Assembly: GCF_013694095.1 (NCBI RefSeq)
Contig: NZ_JACEFB010000003.1
Location: 1 to 64,000, forward strand
DNA: 64,000 bases
DNA from: Thermogemmata fonticola
GTDB taxonomy: Bacteria; Planctomycetota; Planctomycetia; Gemmatales; Gemmataceae
Reading direction: 5' to 3'
The notes under the pieces were generated by a model. It was not told where the DNA came from. It did not search any database and was given only the letters and a program-made list of their open reading frames with translations. The position numbers were made by a program, and so were the translations under genes. Shown here piece after piece: positions 1-8,975 of the stretch (its first letter is position 1; every line of letters starts with the position of its first letter).

Positions 1-1521
1 GTCCACTACCTTCGGACCGGAAGGAGTCGTGGAATCGAACATTTTCCCTACATTGAGGCGGCCGCCTGTCAAGACTTTGCCCGATAGTCCTGAAATGGGG
101 TCCACAGAGGCCTTGAGTTTATCAATCACTTGCGTGTAGCTAAGTGTGGGATTGCTGGCCCAATAGAGGGCAATGGCACCTGTGACGTGCGGCGCAGCCA
201 TCGATGTACCGCTGAAATATGAGTAGCCATTATTGCGTACAGTACTGAGAATGGAGACTCCGGGGGCAGCTAATGTGACGGTATTGGCTCCATAGTTTGA
301 TGAGCTAGCTAATTGGTCTGAGCTATTCACAGAGGCCACAGTGATAACGTTGTTATAACTTGTTGAGTAGCTCGCCGGATATTGCGGTGAGGAATCCAGG
401 TTTTGTCCGCTATTCCCCGCGGCGGCGACGATGATATGTCCGGCATCCCGCGCCCGGCTGATAGCCGCGGCTAAAGAGGCGCTATAGTTGGCTCCTCCCC
501 AACTGTGATTGGTCAGCTTGACGCCTTTAGTGGTGGCGTAATCGATGGCCATGACGGCGCGGCTCACCAGGCCATTCCCACTCGAATCGAGGAATTTGAG
601 AGCCATCAGGCTGAGCGACCAGTTGATTCCAGTGACACCTACGCCATTGTTCCCCACGGCGCCGATGGTCCCCGCCACGTGGGTTCCGTGATTGTTATCA
701 TCCATCGGGTCATTATCGTTGTTGGCGAAGTCCCAGCCGAAGAGGTCATCCACGTAGCCGTTGCTGTCCTGATCCACACCATCCAACCAGCCGCCTTGCG
801 AAGTGGAGCGGAAAATATCCGCCGGATCGATCACGCCATTGCCGTTGTTGTCCGTCACTTTGCCAGAGTTACTGGAATGATTCAGGTCGCGGAAGGTGAT
901 GACGCCATCACCATCGGCATCAGTCAAAGTGTTGCGAATGGAGGTCGGTATCTCAGCATTGTTGATCCAGATGTTCATGAATAAATCTTGATGATTGTAG
1001 TCAATACCTGTATCAACGACACCCACTACGAATTTTGGCATGCCTGTGGTGACATCCCAAGCTATAGGGGCGCCGATTTTCGTCATATCCCATTGTGAGG
1101 AATATTGGGGATCATTGGGATCGCGTTGAATGGAGACGTAGTTGTCCACCGAGGCTGTCACAGCATAAGGACGCGTGGAATAGTAAGCGACGGCAGTAAG
1201 AGGAGAAACTCCGGCTTTGAGATGGACGGAATAGATGCCTAAGCCAAGATACTCTACCGTTTGAGCGTAGGGAGAAGACGCCAGCACCTGAGCGGCGGCC
1301 GTGGAACCCACAGGAGATCGCATCACCACATTGATGCGGTCGGAAGCGTAAGCGGGGAGCAAGTCCAGGACCGGCGGTTGGGAAAAGGGAAAGACGCTGC
1401 TCGGCGTCAGGCGATCTTCCAGTTGTTCCAGTTTGAGAGCGCTCAACCGAGGTTGGCGCGACAGAAGCCGTGAGGAAGTCCGGACAGCTTTTTTCAAGGC
1501 ACGACGCAAGTAGTTCCGCAT
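1..1521 (-). CDS. Secreted subtilisin-like serine protease (S8), C-terminus cut by window edge
   Basis: Exported peptidase of the S8 subtilase family; 507 codons are visible and no stop occurs before base 1, so the C-terminus lies outside. The catalytic triad is readable: Asp170 in VVDTGID, His278 in NNHGTHVAG and Ser440 in GTSMAAPHV, with the oxyanion Asn in VAAAGN near residue 370. The N-terminus carries LEQLEDRLTPS, a planctomycete motif common on exported proteins. Between Asp and His lies an insert of about 100 residues with three Asp/Asn-rich EF-hand-like loops (for example DADGDGVITFRDL and DNNGNGVIDPAD), which probably bind calcium. The ATG at 1521 is preceded by AGAGAGGGA. The substrate is unknown; a nutritional or surface-protein processing role is inference. 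Confidence 0.93.
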   Translation of the reverse strand, partial: MRNYLRRALKKAVRTSSRLLSRQPRLSALKLEQLEDRLTPSSVFPFSQPPVLDLLPAYASDRINVVMRSPVGSTAAAQVLASSPYAQTVEYLGLGIYSVHLKAGVSPLTAVAYYSTRPYAVTASVDNYVSIQRDPNDPQYSSQWDMTKIGAPIAWDVTTGMPKFVVGVVDTGIDYNHQDLFMNIWINNAEIPTSIRNTLTDADGDGVITFRDLNHSSNSGKVTDNNGNGVIDPADIFRSTSQGGWLDGVDQDSNGYVDDLFGWDFANNDNDPMDDNNHGTHVAGTIGAVGNNGVGVTGINWSLSLMALKFLDSSGNGLVSRAVMAIDYATTKGVKLTNHSWGGANYSASLAAAISRARDAGHIIVAAAGNSGQNLDSSPQYPASYSTSYNNVITVASVNSSDQLASSSNYGANTVTLAAPGVSILSTVRNNGYSYFSGTSMAAPHVTGAIALYWASNPTLSYTQVIDKLKASVDPISGLSGKVLTGGRLNVGKMFDSTTPSGPKVVD

Positions 1522-1881
1522 GGCGAGTCCCTCTCTGCGGACGGGAAGGTTCAGTTCGAAGGAATGCGGGCGAGTCGAAGCCAGTCGGACGGGCTGAAGG
1601 CGGACGGGAACAACCTCACCACCGCCGCTTCTGTGATACCTTTTAGTGGCCGGGAAATTGGGATGCAAATCTCGAATGGGTCGGTTTGGCCGAATTGGCC
1701 AAGAATGCCAGGAAAATTGAGTGTGCGAGAGAAAGTTCCAGGGCTTGCCGAAATCCTGTCACCGTGTTGCCAGCGGAAAAACTTGTCGGGAAAGGAAAGA
1801 TATCCAAAAAAAATCCCTTCCCGGAACGAGGGGAAGGGATCGGATCAGAAGAACGATTGGATTCGCGGAAGTGGGATGCGG
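1522..1881. other. Intergenic region, 360 bp
   Basis: Lies between the subtilase start and the stop of the alpha-toroid gene, both on the minus strand. It holds the terminator at 1806-1840 and presumably the subtilase promoter, for which I see no convincing hexamers. Short open frames here have no ribosome site and resemble nothing known. Confidence 0.6.
1806..1840 (-). terminator. Rho-independent terminator of the ExbB/ExbD operon
   Basis: Read on the minus strand, ATCCCTTCCC (1840-1831) pairs perfectly with GGGAAGGGAT (1822-1813) across an 8-base loop, followed by eight T residues. It begins about 40 bases after the stop of the alpha-toroid gene and is one of the two clearest intrinsic terminators in the window. 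Confidence 0.9.
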
Positions 1882-3525
1882 TTATTTGACCGCTTCGAGG
1901 AAGCGAGCATCACCGGCGGCAGCACGCTTGTACAGGGGCATGTGGCGATAGTAAACTTCGAGAGTCATAACGCACATGGCGGTGGTGCCCAAACGGCCTG
2001 TTCTTCCCATCGCACCGCTATCCGGGTCCCAACTGCCATAATTAGGCCCATCTTTGGTGACTTGCAGATCGATCAGCCAATCCCGCATGCCGCCGGTTCG
2101 CTTGCCAGTCTGCGGGTCTTTGGGACCTTCGTTCCAGGTCCGCCAGGCCTCGCCTTCGAAGAAGTGAACCACCTGAGTGGCGTAATAGTAGTAGTACATA
2201 TTCCCCAGTACTTTGCTGCCGAACCGAGGCGGAGTACGTTGCAGCAACCCCTGGACGCCTTCAGCCATCGCGGCATTGTCCGGTCCCCACCCATCGACGT
2301 AGTATCGGCAGAGCAGGCCGACGGCAGTCAAGGCAGTTCCAGGTGCAGCTCCTGCGGCATCTCGGTAGCCATACATGGTTTTGCGCGAACCCGCTCCCAC
2401 TTTGTCAAGGAACTTGATCGCTTTCTTGATACAATTGGGGTCAACTACAATATCTTTGCTCAAGCGGGCAGCTTGTAGGGCCTGAATCTGCCAACCGACG
2501 ATGGAGGTATCCCCCGGACTTCCCGCCTGGTAGCCCCAGCTCCCATCGGCAGCTTGTGCACGGATGATGAAGTTGATCGCGGCTTGAGCATGAGGTTTGA
2601 GAGCCGGATCCTTGGTCATACCGTAGGCTTCGCAGAGGGCCAAGGCGCCGATGGCTTGGGCATACATGGTGCGTGCCCCGATGAATTTGCCGGCATTCGG
2701 GCCGCTGACCGGACAATTCCGCATGAGGTATTGCAGCCCCCGCTCCACGTTCGCCCGGTATTTTTTGGCATGTTTGTGGGTCTCGCCAGCTCCCAGAAAA
2801 GCAGCCAATGCCAGTCCGGTGGCGGCAACGATTTCCTCCTTGTGATCGCCGTCAAAGACCCAAGAGCCATCGGTCCGCTGCTGTTTCGCCAGCCAAGCCA
2901 AGCCGCGAGCCACGGCTGCTTCGCTCCGCTCATTCCCGCCGCCTTCCCGCAGCATTTGGCTCTTCGTGGCACCACTGCGCCCGGCGAAGGAACTCATCAT
3001 ATTGCCATAGTTTCCGCCACCGCTGATAGCATTGCCTTCCAGACCGGCTAAACCGGGAGTGTTCGCCTCCAGCGAGGGAATACCCACGAGGTCGAAGGCA
3101 TTACGGTCCAGGTCCGGGTCCGGCACATCCGGCTTGCCCAAGGGATCCGTCGTGACCACTTCATCGACGGTTCGCTCATCAACCCGCTCTTTATCCGGCA
3201 GGGCAGACTCCAAATTGGCATCGAGGCCGATGTCTTCATTCGTGAGGTTGTCCTGCGGCTCCGTTTCCTCTTTTTCCACGGAGGTCGCAATCACCTTTTC
3301 CGAAGCGTTGGTTTGGGTCGGCTGCCCCGCAAAGAGCAATAGGAGGGCCACCAGGGCGACATGGACCGCCCCACTGATGACCCAAGCGGGCAGATGCTTG
3401 CGCAACAGCCGCTCTTGGGCCGTTTCCTGCGCTGCTTCCACCCGGCGGATGACAGCTCCCCCTTTCGCGGCTGGAACTGGCGGAGATGGGAGATTCGCCG
3501 GCACCGGCTGGGGAGACTTGCTCAT
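1882..3525 (-). CDS. TonB-like membrane anchor fused to a squalene-cyclase/prenyltransferase-type alpha-toroid
   Basis: 547 residues. A cytoplasmic Pro/Ala-rich N-terminus (1-44) is followed by one membrane helix (about 47-66) containing Ser51-x3-His55, the spacing of the Ser/His pair in the TonB anchor helix. Then come an acidic linker (75-200) and an alpha/alpha-toroid with QW-type repeats: QQRTDGSW at about 215, QAADGSW at about 330 and a degenerate GSWDPDSG near 510. The catalytic DxDD of true squalene-hopene cyclases is not seen, so it is probably a binding or scaffold fold, not a cyclase. ATG at 3525 follows GGAGG. It is the last gene of a run with ExbB and two ExbD proteins and ends at a strong terminator. 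Inference: a force-transmitting protein driven by the proton motive force in which the toroid replaces the TonB C-terminal domain. Confidence 0.8.
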   Translation of the reverse strand: MSKSPQPVPANLPSPPVPAAKGGAVIRRVEAAQETAQERLLRKHLPAWVISGAVHVALVALLLLFAGQPTQTNASEKVIATSVEKEETEPQDNLTNEDIGLDANLESALPDKERVDERTVDEVVTTDPLGKPDVPDPDLDRNAFDLVGIPSLEANTPGLAGLEGNAISGGGNYGNMMSSFAGRSGATKSQMLREGGGNERSEAAVARGLAWLAKQQRTDGSWVFDGDHKEEIVAATGLALAAFLGAGETHKHAKKYRANVERGLQYLMRNCPVSGPNAGKFIGARTMYAQAIGALALCEAYGMTKDPALKPHAQAAINFIIRAQAADGSWGYQAGSPGDTSIVGWQIQALQAARLSKDIVVDPNCIKKAIKFLDKVGAGSRKTMYGYRDAAGAAPGTALTAVGLLCRYYVDGWGPDNAAMAEGVQGLLQRTPPRFGSKVLGNMYYYYYATQVVHFFEGEAWRTWNEGPKDPQTGKRTGGMRDWLIDLQVTKDGPNYGSWDPDSGAMGRTGRLGTTAMCVMTLEVYYRHMPLYKRAAAGDARFLEAVK

Positions 3526-3826
3526 CGCTGTCCTCCTTTCGACATGACAAACTCCACGATGTCAGAAGGTCTCAGGTCCCCTACGGACCACTATAACTCA
3601 CGACTCACGTTCTATCCATCGCACAACGGTTGGGAAAAGAGTGAGTCGATGCCCTTCTACATCACACTCTTCCCCCACCGTATCTTCCCTGCAATAGCTT
3701 TACTCTGCATCGCATCGGCTCGGATTCCCTAACTTGAATTCCCCTAAATCGCCTCTCTGCGGCGGCCGAAGTCATTGATGCCGATAACTCTCTGTCGGGT
3801 TTTCTCCGTCGGAGCGTAATCCACCC
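3526..3826. other. Intergenic region, 301 bp, inside the Exb gene run
   Basis: Separates two same-strand genes of the ExbB/ExbD run. I see no terminator with a T-run and no clear promoter hexamers, so read-through is possible. The gap is longer than elsewhere in the run and could hold an internal promoter. Confidence 0.5.
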
Positions 3827-5377
3827 TCAAAATCGTCCCGGTGTATCGAACGGATTGCGCTGCTGTTGGGCGATTTCGTCCCGGATGCGGCGGTCATCCC
3901 GGCGATACCACCAGGTCAGCCCCAAGGCGATGAGGACCATGCCGATGACGGCTGCGGTGGCTGCCGTGGAAAACGCGGTCCAGGACACTGGCGAAGCGGC
4001 TTCAGGGTCCGGCCGCAAAATCACGCTGCGCCCCAGAAGGAGGGGAGCACGTTTGACCACAAAGCGGCTCGGATCGTCGGCATCCCGCTCCGCCGATTCG
4101 TAACGCATGAGTTTGAAGTAATAACCGGCGAAGGAAACCCAATAGTTGACCCGTCCCCCCGCTTCGACGCCCTCTGGTAAGTCCGTGAAAACGACACAGA
4201 CGGGGTTCCCACGGGGTTCGTTTTGCGGGATCAGCCAGCCCTCGTAGAGAGTGTCCACACCGGCATCCTGAAGTTTGCGGGTGGCGGCAAAGGAACGTAA
4301 CATGACGAGGCGGCCTTCCAGGCGCACCAATTCCAGCAGGTAGGAGCGCGGTCCGCGGAAGTCACGGCGGCCATCGCTCAATTCCCGATGGCCATCGAAG
4401 TAAAGGTCCGCGAAGCGAAGGTCGCGGCGGGCGAACTCTTCCAGTTCCTGAGCGCTCCAGCGGCGGGCATGGAGGAGCACGCGGTTGTAAGCTGCGGCCT
4501 CTTCCCACCGATCGGCTCCCCGCGCCACCCACGTATCGTTTTCGATGCGGCGGAAAATGCGAAGCTGCCGGTCCAGAGCGGGGGGAACTTGAGGGTCTGG
4601 GCCAGGCGGCGGAACAGTTCCTACCTGCAAGCCCTTGCCGATCAAAATCGGCAGGGTCGGGTCCGGCTTGACTTTGAAGAAGTAACCCGCTGCACTGGCC
4701 CAAAGGTTATCGAACTCTAGCCACGTGTTCACGGGAGCGGAAGTCAATTTCTGCAAGGCTTCCGGACATTCCGTAAAAACCACGGACACCCGATCGGGAG
4801 GCGGCTCATCCAGCGGTTCCAGGATCGCTTCATAAACCGCGGCGATGCCCACCTGCTGTAAGGTCGGGGTCGGTTCTACCCGGCGGGCCTGCACCAGGCG
4901 TCCATCCATGCGGATCAGCTCCAGGCGCAGAGTCTCACGGCTGTTTTCCACCAGTTCATCCCGCACGATATCTCGGCGTGCATGGGTCAAAAGCTCTTCT
5001 GGGGTGAATTGCCGGGCGTGCAGGAGCAATTCGTGCCAGGCGTGATATTCGTCGCTGTTGTCCTTCTCGGAGGCCACGGGAGTAAAATCCACGATACCTC
5101 CGGTGCGTTTCAAAGTTTTCGGATCCTGGAATCCCCGGAAAATGGCCCGATCGGGATTGGGCACCCGGTAATCTTTGCCTTGGGACGGAAGCGTTGGTGG
5201 CAGGGGGGGGCGGGGATCAGGTGGATCATCCGCCGCACCAAGTTGACCCAACACCCCAGCGGTCAGGGCCAGGCAAAACACAGGCAACCCCGTGCTCAGA
5301 CGACGGGGAAAAGCCCCTATCCCATGCCTACAGCCCCTTTCTACTCCCATACGTGAAATGACCTCATGGCACTGCAA
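3827..5377 (-). CDS. Membrane-anchored protein with a duplicated ~165-residue domain, function unknown
   Basis: 516 residues with an N-terminal hydrophobic segment (about 28-48, signal-like, ending near GAADD) and a C-terminal membrane helix (about 473-491, AAVIGMVLIALGLTWWYRR) followed by a short basic tail. Between them two copies of one domain can be aligned by eye. Both copies share an LLHAR...EL..HARRD block, a LEL.R..GRLV..R block, a YE..L.P..EP block, a VVFT..PE block and a final AGY(Y/F)FK. I do not recognise the family. Topology suggests the pair sits outside the cytoplasmic membrane. It lies between the second ExbD gene and the toroid gene on the same strand, so it probably belongs to the same machine. 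A later ATG (Met11) is a possible alternative start. Confidence 0.75.
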   Translation of the reverse strand: MQCHEVISRMGVERGCRHGIGAFPRRLSTGLPVFCLALTAGVLGQLGAADDPPDPRPPLPPTLPSQGKDYRVPNPDRAIFRGFQDPKTLKRTGGIVDFTPVASEKDNSDEYHAWHELLLHARQFTPEELLTHARRDIVRDELVENSRETLRLELIRMDGRLVQARRVEPTPTLQQVGIAAVYEAILEPLDEPPPDRVSVVFTECPEALQKLTSAPVNTWLEFDNLWASAAGYFFKVKPDPTLPILIGKGLQVGTVPPPGPDPQVPPALDRQLRIFRRIENDTWVARGADRWEEAAAYNRVLLHARRWSAQELEEFARRDLRFADLYFDGHRELSDGRRDFRGPRSYLLELVRLEGRLVMLRSFAATRKLQDAGVDTLYEGWLIPQNEPRGNPVCVVFTDLPEGVEAGGRVNYWVSFAGYYFKLMRYESAERDADDPSRFVVKRAPLLLGRSVILRPDPEAASPVSWTAFSTAATAAVIGMVLIALGLTWWYRRDDRRIRDEIAQQQRNPFDTPGRF

Positions 5378-5501
5378 TAGTTAGACGAGGATTTCTTTTC
5401 GGAGTTCCGGTTTTTTCCTCGGTCCTTCCCATTCCCCTCTTCCGTAGCTCCGCGAGTGGGAACTGAGCAAGAGTGATCGGGAAACTGGAAAACAAGACAG
5501 A

Positions 5502-5990
5502 TCAGGTGCCGCCCGAGGCCAGAATGGGGGAGATGTCCGTAAATCCGGCCCGCAAGGCATGGTCCATCAGAGAGACGACGTATTCATGCAACAGACGCCC
5601 ATCCAATTCCAGGGTGAGCTTGGCGCCGCGCTCTTGGTGACGTTGCATCGCGTCTTTGAGGGCGTTCATATAACGGCTGAGGTCCGCACCCAGGTCGGTA
5701 GGAGGACTTGCCGAACCTTCTTCCTTGAGACTCATACGGGCAATTTGGCCGCTGGCGTTTGCAGTGACCCGCACGATATACTTGGCAGGCTTATCCCCGA
5801 AGGGATCGGGCATCGCCGCCCCACCCCCCTGCTCCGGCGGCGGAAGCTGCATCGCCAACTGTCCCTCGGTCGGCGACGGCTTAAACGTCATGATGAAAAA
5901 CGCCAAAAGCTGGAAAGACATGTCCAGCATCGGCGTGATGGGCAGGTCCGGCTCGATGTGCTCCGTATGACCTTTTCGCCGACGACCCAT
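5502..5990 (-). CDS. exbD: ExbD/TolR-family biopolymer transport protein (second copy)
   Basis: 162 residues, a usual ExbD length. Short basic cytoplasmic N-terminus, then one membrane helix beginning ITPMLDMSFQLLAFFIMTF, where the Asp of PMLDM matches the essential proton-binding Asp of ExbD/TolR. The rest is a periplasmic ExbD-type domain. With ExbB it forms a proton channel that powers a partner such as TonB or TolA. A GGGGC sequence lies before the ATG at 5990. It follows the first ExbD gene by 53 bp and is clearly different from it, so the stator may be heteromeric, as in several planctomycete and Bacteroidetes loci. Confidence 0.93.
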   Translation of the reverse strand: MGRRRKGHTEHIEPDLPITPMLDMSFQLLAFFIMTFKPSPTEGQLAMQLPPPEQGGGAAMPDPFGDKPAKYIVRVTANASGQIARMSLKEEGSASPPTDLGADLSRYMNALKDAMQRHQERGAKLTLELDGRLLHEYVVSLMDHALRAGFTDISPILASGGT

Positions 5991-6043
5991 GGGCGCCCCT
6001 CAACAAACGGAACTCGCTGCCGCCCATATCCTTCCACACTCAC

Positions 6044-6517
6044 TCAGTCCAAGGTACCGTGGAGGATTGCCCGCAGTTGGACTCGTTCGTATCCAACCCG
6101 GCGGCAAGCGTTCATGATCTCAAATGTCTTGCGGAACTCCGTCTCCCGATCTACCCGCAGGATCAATACTGTCTCCAGTGGCGTGCTCGGGTCTTTTTTG
6201 GTCCGGCGTCGTTCCTCATTCGCGCGGCGGCGCAGATAATTCTCCACTTGAATAGCATTGTCCAGGGTATGGATGTCCCCTTCCCACTGATCCGGCGTGA
6301 GAATCACCCGGCCTTCCTTGTTGATGTTGAGGAAGAAGATCGACTGGGCGGTCTTTTCCACCGCTTTGGCCGCAATCGACTCCGGCAGGCGGATTTCCAC
6401 CGCCGTCTGCTCCATGACAAAGTTAGCCGAGAGCATGAAAAACATGATCAACTGTAGAACCAGGTCCAGGAGCGGCGTGAAATTCGGCTCCCCGCGATCA
6501 ATGTTGCCGTGACTCAT
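6044..6517 (-). CDS. exbD: ExbD/TolR-family biopolymer transport protein (first copy)
   Basis: 157 residues. N-terminal helix with FTPLLDLVLQLIMFFML, including the conserved membrane Asp, followed by a periplasmic domain containing LRVDRETEFRKTFEIMNACR, typical of the ExbD C-terminal fold. The ATG at 6517 has GGGGGAG about 6 bases upstream. It sits 50 bp after the ExbB gene and 53 bp before the other ExbD gene on the same strand, so co-transcription is very likely. Partner specificity is not visible from the sequence; the toroid protein at the end of the run is the obvious candidate. Confidence 0.94.
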   Translation of the reverse strand: MSHGNIDRGEPNFTPLLDLVLQLIMFFMLSANFVMEQTAVEIRLPESIAAKAVEKTAQSIFFLNINKEGRVILTPDQWEGDIHTLDNAIQVENYLRRRANEERRRTKKDPSTPLETVLILRVDRETEFRKTFEIMNACRRVGYERVQLRAILHGTLD

Positions 6518-6567
6518 GGCTGCTCCCCCTCGCTCTGGTCAATACACCCCTCCGTTTCGGGGAAGCA

Positions 6568-7404
6568 TCAGCGCGGGGGCGCCGGTGGAGGAGCAGCAGT
6601 ACCCACACCCTGGGCGGAGGGCGGCACGTTGGCGGCTGCCGCGGCGGCCACCGCCGGTTTCTTCGAGTTGTGATACATTTGGGTCAAAAGATCATCAGCG
6701 ATATGCCCCACATCCATGCATAGCCGCGTGATGCGGTTGCGGAAGTAGGCGTTGAAGAAAATGGCGGGCACCGAGATCGCAATGCCGAAGAGCGTCACCA
6801 CGAGGGCGTGCGCGATACCATCGGCCAGCTTGGCGGGATTGATCTGCGTCGCCGTTGCTAGAACCGAGAAGGACTTGATCATGCCGTACACCGTACCCAC
6901 CAGTCCAAACATCGGCCCTAATGTCCCGATCACCGCGGTGTAGTTGTTTTTCTGGTCCTTATCCGCCTTGATGCTTTCCAGGGCGTTCATCGCCGCTTCT
7001 CGCGCATCTTCCAGGCCGTACTGCAAGCGACCCATCCCTGCGGTCAGCACTTGGCCCAAAAAGGAAGGATCGCTTCGCGCCAAGTCAAAGGCTTCCTTGA
7101 ACTTCCGCTGATTGACAATTCCCGTGAACTCCTCCACGAATCCTGGAGGAATCGCTCCGCTCATGCGCAAATCCAGCGCCAGTAGAACGCAAAGGGCCAC
7201 CAACGCCACCGACACTGCCAGCAGGAGAGGGCCGAATACCGGTCCCACCGCCTTGATCATGAACAGGGCCAAGGACTCTTGCGGCCCTTCGGCTGCTGCA
7301 CTTTCCTGAGCTTGGGCCACGCCTGCAAACACAGCCAGGACCCAAAGCACTAGACAAAACCGAAACAATCCCCGCGCCCAACTCTGGTAAGCCGATCGGT
7401 TCAT
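6568..7404 (-). CDS. exbB: MotA/TolQ/ExbB proton channel family protein
   Basis: 278 residues from the chosen ATG. The N-terminus reads as a signal/first helix (LFRFCLVLWVLAVFAGVAQAQ), followed by three membrane helices: one near 60-80, and a pair around 160-225 containing the hallmark IGTLGPMFGLVGTVYGMI and a second segment with GIAHALVVTLFGIAISVPA. ExbB proteins form the pentameric stator around ExbD. The C-terminus is Ala/Pro-rich and variable. A longer frame starts at 7467, but its extra 21 residues have no ribosome site and would bury the signal sequence, so the Met at 7404 was chosen. First gene of the operon running down to 1882. Confidence 0.93.
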   Translation of the reverse strand: MNRSAYQSWARGLFRFCLVLWVLAVFAGVAQAQESAAAEGPQESLALFMIKAVGPVFGPLLLAVSVALVALCVLLALDLRMSGAIPPGFVEEFTGIVNQRKFKEAFDLARSDPSFLGQVLTAGMGRLQYGLEDAREAAMNALESIKADKDQKNNYTAVIGTLGPMFGLVGTVYGMIKSFSVLATATQINPAKLADGIAHALVVTLFGIAISVPAIFFNAYFRNRITRLCMDVGHIADDLLTQMYHNSKKPAVAAAAAANVPPSAQGVGTAAPPPAPPR

Positions 7405-7790: not shown

Positions 7791-8708
7791 TTATTCCGGC
7801 ACCTGCACCGCTTCACCTCCCGCCCGGCTCGCCAACGCTGGCATAACCTCATTGGCCCCGTAGGAGACGAACTGCACCCGCCCATCGGCGAAAGCAAAGT
7901 TGGCACCCCCCGTATGCGGCGACCAGAAGTGAAACATCCCGCAGGGATCGTCGAATCCCCGCGCGGGTCGATAGGGATAGCGGCCCGGACCGCACGGCGA
8001 ACCAGCCGTAATGATCTGCAAGTTCGGTTCCCGCACCCCTAGAATCATATCCGCCGATCCCGTCAGTTGCTGCCCAGCACCGGCGTACCACCACCCGTAT
8101 TGGAAATCATGGCTCGGCGGCCGCTCCCCTAGCATCAGGGTGTTACTGCTCCCATCGGTGATGTCCCCCAAACGCACCTTTGACCCCTGATACAACACCC
8201 CGGTGCGCTGGCTGATCGAGTCGTACCCCGACACTCCCATGTAGGACAGCAAGGCCGCATTGGTCTGAGTCCGCAAAGAGATTTGCGGTCCCGGCGTCCG
8301 GCCATCTGACGGGCACGCAAATATGACCAACGGCGTCGATAAGCCCTGATGAGGAATCGGGCGGAAGGGCAACGGTTGCAACTGATATTCCCACTGGGCC
8401 TGAGTGTAGAGCGACTGCTGCTCCAGGTACGGTAGAATCGACAGCGGCCAACCGGAATACGGCAGGCGGTCCGGATGCGTCGCCGAGCGATGCCCCGGCG
8501 GCAAGCTATGATTCGTGTCATGGTAATTGTGCAGCGCCAGGGCCAACTGCCGCAGGCGATTTTGGCAATCCAAGCGCGCCGCCGCCCCACGCACCCTCTG
8601 AACCGCCGATAACAATAGCCCCATCAGGATGGAGATGATGGCGATAACCACCAACAACTCCAACAAGGTCATCCCCCTACACCGTCGACGACATGCCAGC
8701 GCAGACAT
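7791..8708 (-). CDS. DUF1559 type II secretion pseudopilin-like protein (H-x9-DG family)
   Basis: 305 residues. The N-terminus has a prepilin peptidase site, RRCRG|MTLLELLVVIAIISILMG, with Glu at position +5 and the hydrophobic pilin helix. The C-terminus shows HTGGANFAFADG, the H-x9-DG motif of DUF1559, a family greatly expanded in Planctomycetes. The middle has the usual LRQLALALHNYHDTN and LPPGH blocks. The ATG at 8708 has AAGGAG 6 bases upstream and puts the prepilin leader at its usual length; a longer frame from 8816 lacks this. Probably a minor pseudopilin or surface protein processed by prepilin peptidase. A promoter is seen at 8751-8780. Confidence 0.93.
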   Translation of the reverse strand: MSALACRRRCRGMTLLELLVVIAIISILMGLLLSAVQRVRGAAARLDCQNRLRQLALALHNYHDTNHSLPPGHRSATHPDRLPYSGWPLSILPYLEQQSLYTQAQWEYQLQPLPFRPIPHQGLSTPLVIFACPSDGRTPGPQISLRTQTNAALLSYMGVSGYDSISQRTGVLYQGSKVRLGDITDGSSNTLMLGERPPSHDFQYGWWYAGAGQQLTGSADMILGVREPNLQIITAGSPCGPGRYPYRPARGFDDPCGMFHFWSPHTGGANFAFADGRVQFVSYGANEVMPALASRAGGEAVQVPE

Positions 8709-8750
8709 GACTTGCTCCTTGTGCGAGAGAGAAATGGGTGACCGAGATAT

Positions 8751-8780
8751 AAGATACCCGCAGTTGTATTCACTTGTCAA
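8751..8780 (-). promoter_or_regulatory. Sigma70-like promoter of the DUF1559 gene
   Basis: On the minus strand, a perfect TTGACA (8780-8775), an 18-base spacer and TATCTT (8756-8751, four of six matches). The predicted transcript start near 8744 leaves a leader of about 36 bases with the AAGGAG ribosome site. Confidence 0.65.
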
Positions 8781-8975
8781 CAAACGAGACAAACTCCCCA
8801 GTCCACATACTGGCAATTCCCCATCTCATCTCATCCGACTGGGATGACCGGGTACTCTTCGGACTTCGATTTGACAGGACACGCTATGCTGAACATCATC
8901 GCACAATCGCAATTCCGACGGTCTCGAGGGTCCTCCCCGTCAGAAGGGTAGGCAGAGTGAAAGTAAGGATTAGCC

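Follow-up and report, generated by a model that had tools for sequence, protein, structure and literature searches.

A putative TonB-like anchor with a cyclase-type toroid, linked to ExbB/ExbD motor genes in planctomycetes

The window analyzed here is a whole stretch of 64,000 nucleotides with which contig C3 of a 4.8-Mb planctomycete genome begins; it encodes an ExbB/ExbD-linked, TonB-like membrane anchor whose head is a cyclase-type toroid. Comparative evidence supports this assignment well: both the membrane motif of the anchor and the gene cluster are conserved, and other families combine toroid and ExbB genes in a second arrangement. The anchor, here named TOR, is probably a motor-coupled transducer in a proton-driven machine that resembles TonB/TolA but has another head.

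Layout of the locus and its recurrence in relatives

The five genes of the cluster (7404-1882) all lie on the minus strand in the order ExbB, ExbD, ExbD, DUP, TOR. The first encodes an ExbB/TolQ-like motor subunit of 278 aa (6568..7404; PF01618, E 3.3e-24). It is followed by an ExbD/TolR-like subunit of 157 aa (6044..6517; PF02472, 2.3e-19) and by a second, divergent one of 162 aa (5502..5990; PF02472, 8.5e-14). DUP, a protein of ~500 aa without a Pfam family, occupies 3827..~5350 and starts at either ATG 5350 or TTG 5377. TOR (547 aa) is encoded at 1882..3525 and matches PF13243 (SQHop_cyclase_C, 8.5e-8). These domain assignments bear out a preliminary description of the locus, which had placed ExbB-ExbD-ExbD and a toroid protein on one strand.

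The gaps between ExbB and ExbD and between the two ExbD genes are ~50 nt each, as short as had been described, and ~150 nt separate the second ExbD gene from DUP. The gap between DUP and TOR measures 301 nt, compared with mostly 10-200 nt in relatives; TOR might therefore have its own promoter in the window genome. A promoter scan returned 2 sites versus 2.0 expected and, being at chance level, is uninformative on transcription units. The terminator scan found 10 terminator-like sites versus 6.5 expected in shuffles. The longest stem among them, with 11 pairs and a T run, lies 3' of TOR (1812..1841, minus strand), where a terminator had already been noted. A search for plasmid carriage gave no match. 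Directly upstream of the cluster and on the same strand lies a DUF1559 prepilin-like gene (PF07596, PF07963; window 7791-8816, minus strand). At the other side, positions 1-1520 (minus strand) hold the beginning of a gene for a subtilisin-type secreted protease-like protein, interrupted by the window edge.

TOR relatives were found in 59/59 genomes of relatives and in 49/59 genomes sampled across the phylum (E 1e-20). Among the best 80 of 578 confirmed TOR stretches, all were planctomycete except a few labelled only 'bacterium' and one labelled Bacteroidales, and the latter resembles a Gemmataceae contig in content. The order ExbB-ExbD-ExbD-DUP-TOR recurs across the family, and the full ExbB-DUP-TOR cluster is present in 19 genomes of the Gemmatales, a term used here for the window's family (Gemmataceae) together with its sister family f2 in the same order. 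In a census of TOR neighbors, DUP (28 loci), ExbB (21), and ExbD (21) were the commonest three, nearly all of them upstream and on the same strand. In some genomes, DUP-TOR and ExbB-ExbD-ExbD are far from each other, by 2.6 Mb in G002.

In other planctomycete families we detected a second arrangement (loci L170-L178), in which ExbB-ExbD is immediately followed by a long-linker TOR of 700-1236 aa with an S-x3-H helix; in L170, it is preceded by a TPR gene. At L072, from another family, a TOR-DUP pair adjoins an ExbB-ExbD-ExbD set in opposite orientation. At L176, a gene (1555-2607) for a vWA protein whose membrane helix bears S-x3-H lies upstream of ExbB-ExbD-ExbD, and a long TOR comes after them. 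Short TORs outside the Gemmatales mostly lack an ExbB in the flanking sequence, and many of the loci end at contig borders. These distant TORs retain the S-x3-H and might therefore use a motor encoded elsewhere.

The preliminary description had proposed a single machine, recognizable by the same gene order in Planctomycetes, and had held that homologs usually located away from ExbB/ExbD would speak against it. The shared order was found in the 19 Gemmatales genomes and, as the second arrangement, in other families; it does not extend to most short TORs outside the Gemmatales. These do lie away from ExbB/ExbD, but they keep the motif. The gene run as described is confirmed, with two points to amend: the fifth gene, DUP, had been overlooked, and TOR follows DUP only after 301 nt.

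The Ser-x3-His helix and the motor subunits

TOR begins with a Pro-rich N-terminus, which is disordered in an AlphaFold2 model built from 32 homologs. Next comes a single membrane helix (residues 36-66; 3328..3420, minus strand) carrying Ser51 (codon 3375-3373) and His55 (codon 3363-3361), in agreement with the positions given earlier. As in TonB and TolA, the Ser-x3-His is located near the cytoplasmic end of the transmembrane (TM) helix. The Leu and the second Ser of the SHLS motif are not shared: the window protein has Leu62 but Ala66, Leu is present in 31/109 TORs, and Ser is not among the common residues at the last position in these 109 proteins.

An alignment of 32 TORs, drawn from the family and the class, shows no exception at Ser51 and at least 90% conservation at His55. 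Every TOR of the first 40 loci has S-x3-H or S-x3-N, one long TOR carrying the motif in its second TM helix. The motif was then counted in all loci. From 149 non-redundant TORs, 26 were dropped (21 with no recognized toroid start, 3 truncated, and 2 with no TM helix), leaving 123 with a readable TM helix. S-x3-H was present in 104, S-x3-N in 12, and neither in 7, so that 116/123 have one or the other. The control consisted of 198 further TM ORFs from these loci, of which 5 had S-x3-H and 3 had S-x3-N. The resulting enrichment of S-x3-H in TORs is ~30-fold, a comparison that somewhat favors TOR since the scan was more lenient for TORs (whole stretch preceding the toroid) than for the control (one TM helix per protein, first 150 residues). 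The Ser/His conservation that the preliminary description had asked about is thus evident.

In E. coli structures, the Ser and His of the transducer (Ser16/His20 in TonB, Ser18/His22 in TolA) touch Ser and Trp residues in ExbB and TolQ (PMC12215075). According to the citation of Swayne and Postle 2011 in PMC8928145, Asn can reportedly stand in fully for His20 of TonB. Asn is also the sole common substitute for His in the TOR motif, and this natural change therefore fits a TonB-like contact. It is found in several lineages (L059-L062, L064, L065, L052, and L055). In the sister family f2 (L168, L169), the TM1 Ser and the TM3 Pro of ExbB are also altered. Co-variation between the His-to-Asn change in TOR and ExbB TM1 was considered; it is seen in f2 (L168, L169) and absent in L064, L108, and L132, and was not used as evidence.

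When the window ExbB was aligned with E. coli ExbB, the channel threonines (GTVxG, VVTL), the TM3 Pro, and the N-x3-R all matched. In TM1, the Ser aligned with ExbB Ser34 is kept and Trp38, the contact of TonB His20 in E. coli, is absent. The Ser aligns in most Gemmataceae ExbB proteins, and the Trp position is occupied by Val, Leu, or another residue. The best NCBIfam score of the window ExbB is to TolQ, and an ExbB ortholog is present in essentially all relatives. Both ExbD proteins belong to PF02472 and have an aspartate in the TM helix (LLDL, MLDM), within NFTPLLDLVLQL in the first and within LPITPMLDMSFQL in the second. The idea that these genes are the sole set of the genome was rejected: a second ExbB-like gene, with two ExbD domains after it, is located at C1:127-130 kb. 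In this second set (L180:7444-10217; G000:C1:127-130 kb), an N-terminal extension is present on one of the ExbDs, and a gene for an FHA-type protein follows.

The toroid head and the DUP protein

The helix of TOR is followed by a disordered, acidic and Gly-rich linker (residues 67-179; 2989..3327, minus strand; pLDDT mostly <50) and by an alpha/alpha toroid (residues 180-530; 1936..2988, minus strand), which is supported by VIA-align, Foldseek, and conservation in 129 domains. The model itself has disorder at 67-178 and a confident toroid at ~185-528, with pLDDT mostly >90. Its top VIA-align match is squalene-hopene cyclase 2sqc (Z 26.9, 3.1 Å, 286 residues); the next are drimenyl diphosphate synthase, sugar epimerases, and GH76 mannanases. 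The predicted head thus has the fold of the class II terpene cyclases, and like squalene-hopene cyclase it contains QW-like repeats. Unlike these enzymes, TOR has a single toroid with its own near-invariant residues, tethered by an N-terminal TM helix and linker, and no DxDD. This motif is missing from the window toroid, as had been described, and from 125/129 related toroid domains. For lack of DxDD, an active squalene or terpene cyclase was rejected.

The near-invariant residues in the 129 domains are E202, G220, W222, E299, D306, D339, W345, Y447, W464, N465, T515, E523, and R527, and the conserved polar ones are H250, E299, D306, D339, Y447, N465, T515, E523, and R527. Such conservation indicates that the toroid is no idle spacer. 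It may hold a conserved binding or reaction site, unlike the site of the cyclases.

Several variants of TOR were observed. Tandem duplicate genes are common within the family and beyond (L047, L051, L055, L067, L069, L100, L112, L120). Paralogs of 410-515 aa at L090, L093-L095, and L086 lack the S-x3-H helix and may be secreted or soluble toroids. Two long TORs adjoining ExbB-ExbD (L171:2342-5878; L172:5471-9034, minus strand) carry N-terminal PD40 (TolB-like propeller) repeats ahead of an S-x3-H helix and a toroid; the repeats were called by Pfam in L171 and by eye in L172.

DUP has a signal peptide, two repeated OB-like domains, a C-terminal TM helix, and a basic cytoplasmic tail. Due to the signal peptide, the OB-like domains would be periplasmic. 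The predicted model (pLDDT 84.8) shows a long C-terminal helix (466-506), and Pfam gave no meaningful hit. The nearest folds are OB folds (best Z ~8), with a Foldseek probability of 1.00 for 3f1z, a periplasmic lipoprotein. One DUP domain resembles this OB-fold lipoprotein; DUP differs from it in its duplicated domain, its C-terminal TM helix, and its lack of a Pfam family. The structural matches are ordinary OB folds, and at Z ~8 they may reflect no more than a shared arrangement.

DUP is the most constant neighbor of both TOR and ExbB. It was found in 38 Gemmatales genomes (31/37 in the family and 7/7 in the sister family). Counting neighbors at a distance of up to 4 kb, 19 of these genomes have both ExbB and TOR near DUP, 11 have TOR only, 8 have ExbB only, and none has DUP by itself; two partial cases stop at contig borders (G001, G020). 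With ExbB, TOR, or both beside it in 38/38 genomes, DUP joins the two halves even when they are separated. Gene order suggests that it is an accessory subunit.

A candidate force transducer and its alternatives

In the proposed machine, ExbB would form a pentamer, and the two different ExbDs, each with its TM aspartate, would form the pore pair. The single TM helix of TOR would dock on ExbB via Ser51 and His55, the disordered linker would extend into the periplasm, and the toroid would bind a partner through its conserved polar surface or a pocket. DUP, anchored in the membrane and exposed to the periplasm, could hold TOR and the motor together or present a ligand. From these parts we infer the assembly of the complex, proton coupling, and the direction of force. 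The ligand would be a glycan, lipid, or protein of the periplasm or outer membrane, and our best guess for the physiological role is envelope upkeep. The full picture, in which TOR, ExbB, the two ExbDs, and DUP make up a planctomycete trans-envelope motor, a proton-driven 5:2 motor working a ligand-binding toroid that fills the Tol-Pal/Ton job, with the toroid transducer being phylum-wide, is tentative, and we give it somewhat less than an even chance.

Motor coupling of TOR is supported by synteny and the motif. We counted against it the missing Trp38 in ExbB, the short TORs distant from ExbB, and split loci as in G002. With TORs so often located away from ExbB, TOR could be a periplasmic protein, anchored in the inner membrane, that catalyzes or binds through a cyclase/glycosidase toroid; it would lie close to ExbB/ExbD through operon sharing, with no mechanical coupling. 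Its conserved polar residues point to a site for a ligand or for catalysis, similarity of the fold extends to GH76 mannanases and sugar epimerases, and some paralogs entirely lack the S-x3-H helix. A mere anchor, however, leaves unexplained why Ser and His/Asn stand at one spacing in 116/123 TORs and why two different ExbB arrangements exist across families, and we regard this reading as improbable. Even less can be said for the view that Ser-x3-His arises by chance or from helix packing in planctomycete signal anchors: the motif does occur in 5 of the 198 unrelated TM ORFs, but it is enriched ~30-fold in TORs and is almost always lost to Asn, which makes such an origin most implausible.

The motor and TOR could also serve envelope constriction rather than uptake, as a Tol-Pal-like machine whose toroid binds a peptidoglycan- or lipoprotein-like partner. 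The window genome lacks TonB_C (present in 10/59 relatives) and the Plug domain of TonB-dependent receptors (present in 23 relatives). No OmpA-family (Pal-type) domain passed the search threshold in it; it does encode an Omp85 protein, which indicates an outer membrane. ExbB scores best versus TolQ, and PD40 repeats of the TolB kind occur in some long TORs. These repeats are common generally, however, and were present in just two of the long TORs read; moreover, no Pal or TolB partner was identified in the window genome. We consider this role possible but rather unlikely; it is a special case of the motor-coupled TOR and does not contradict it.

With TonB-ExbB-ExbD and TolA-TolQ-TolR, the TOR system shares the motor families and a transducer with a Ser-x3-His TM helix, a linker, and a periplasmic head. 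It differs in that TOR has no TonB_C or TolA head, that the window contains two unlike ExbDs and an OB-fold membrane protein, and, compared with TonB-ExbB-ExbD, that TM1 of ExbB has no Trp38 equivalent. By the evidence given, TOR would act like TonB or TolA, yet it is placed outside the TonB_C family and would be no active class II terpene cyclase.

Closest in kind are vWA force transducers, which have an SHLS-type TM helix, a linker, and a vWA head, and are encoded beside tolQ-like and paired tolR-like genes, in planctomycetes included; the authors suggested that further such systems await discovery (Williams-Jones et al. 2025, PMC12204202). Like TOR, these proteins combine a Ser/His TM helix with a flexible linker and a globular non-TonB head, and their genes, too, adjoin one TolQ-like and two different TolR-like genes. 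A TPR gene is located upstream, as it is upstream of the long-linker TOR in L170, whereas the Gemmatales clusters have the OB-fold DUP. The heads differ, according to Pfam and structure: a vWA fold versus the alpha/alpha toroid of TOR. Since a toroid takes the place of the vWA domain here, TOR is a new variant of an already described kind, and 'new system', as the locus had first been called, is too strong. The text of PMC12204202 does not mention toroid, squalene, prenyl, or cyclase. A literature search joining planctomycetes, ExbB, and squalene, with subscription papers and preprints outside its scope, found none; one joining planctomycetes, TonB, and prenyltransferase returned papers that, judged by title, are apparently unrelated.

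Division and uptake are unusual in the planctomycetes, which are diderm bacteria. The TonB_C domain is absent from many of the genomes examined, the window genome included. The widespread toroid-headed membrane protein suggests an undescribed route for inner-membrane force into the envelope of these bacteria. If so, the toroid transducer would give planctomycete ExbB/ExbD motors a job, force transduction would extend past TonB, TolA, and vWA heads, and a cyclase-type toroid would gain a mechanical or binding role in place of catalysis.
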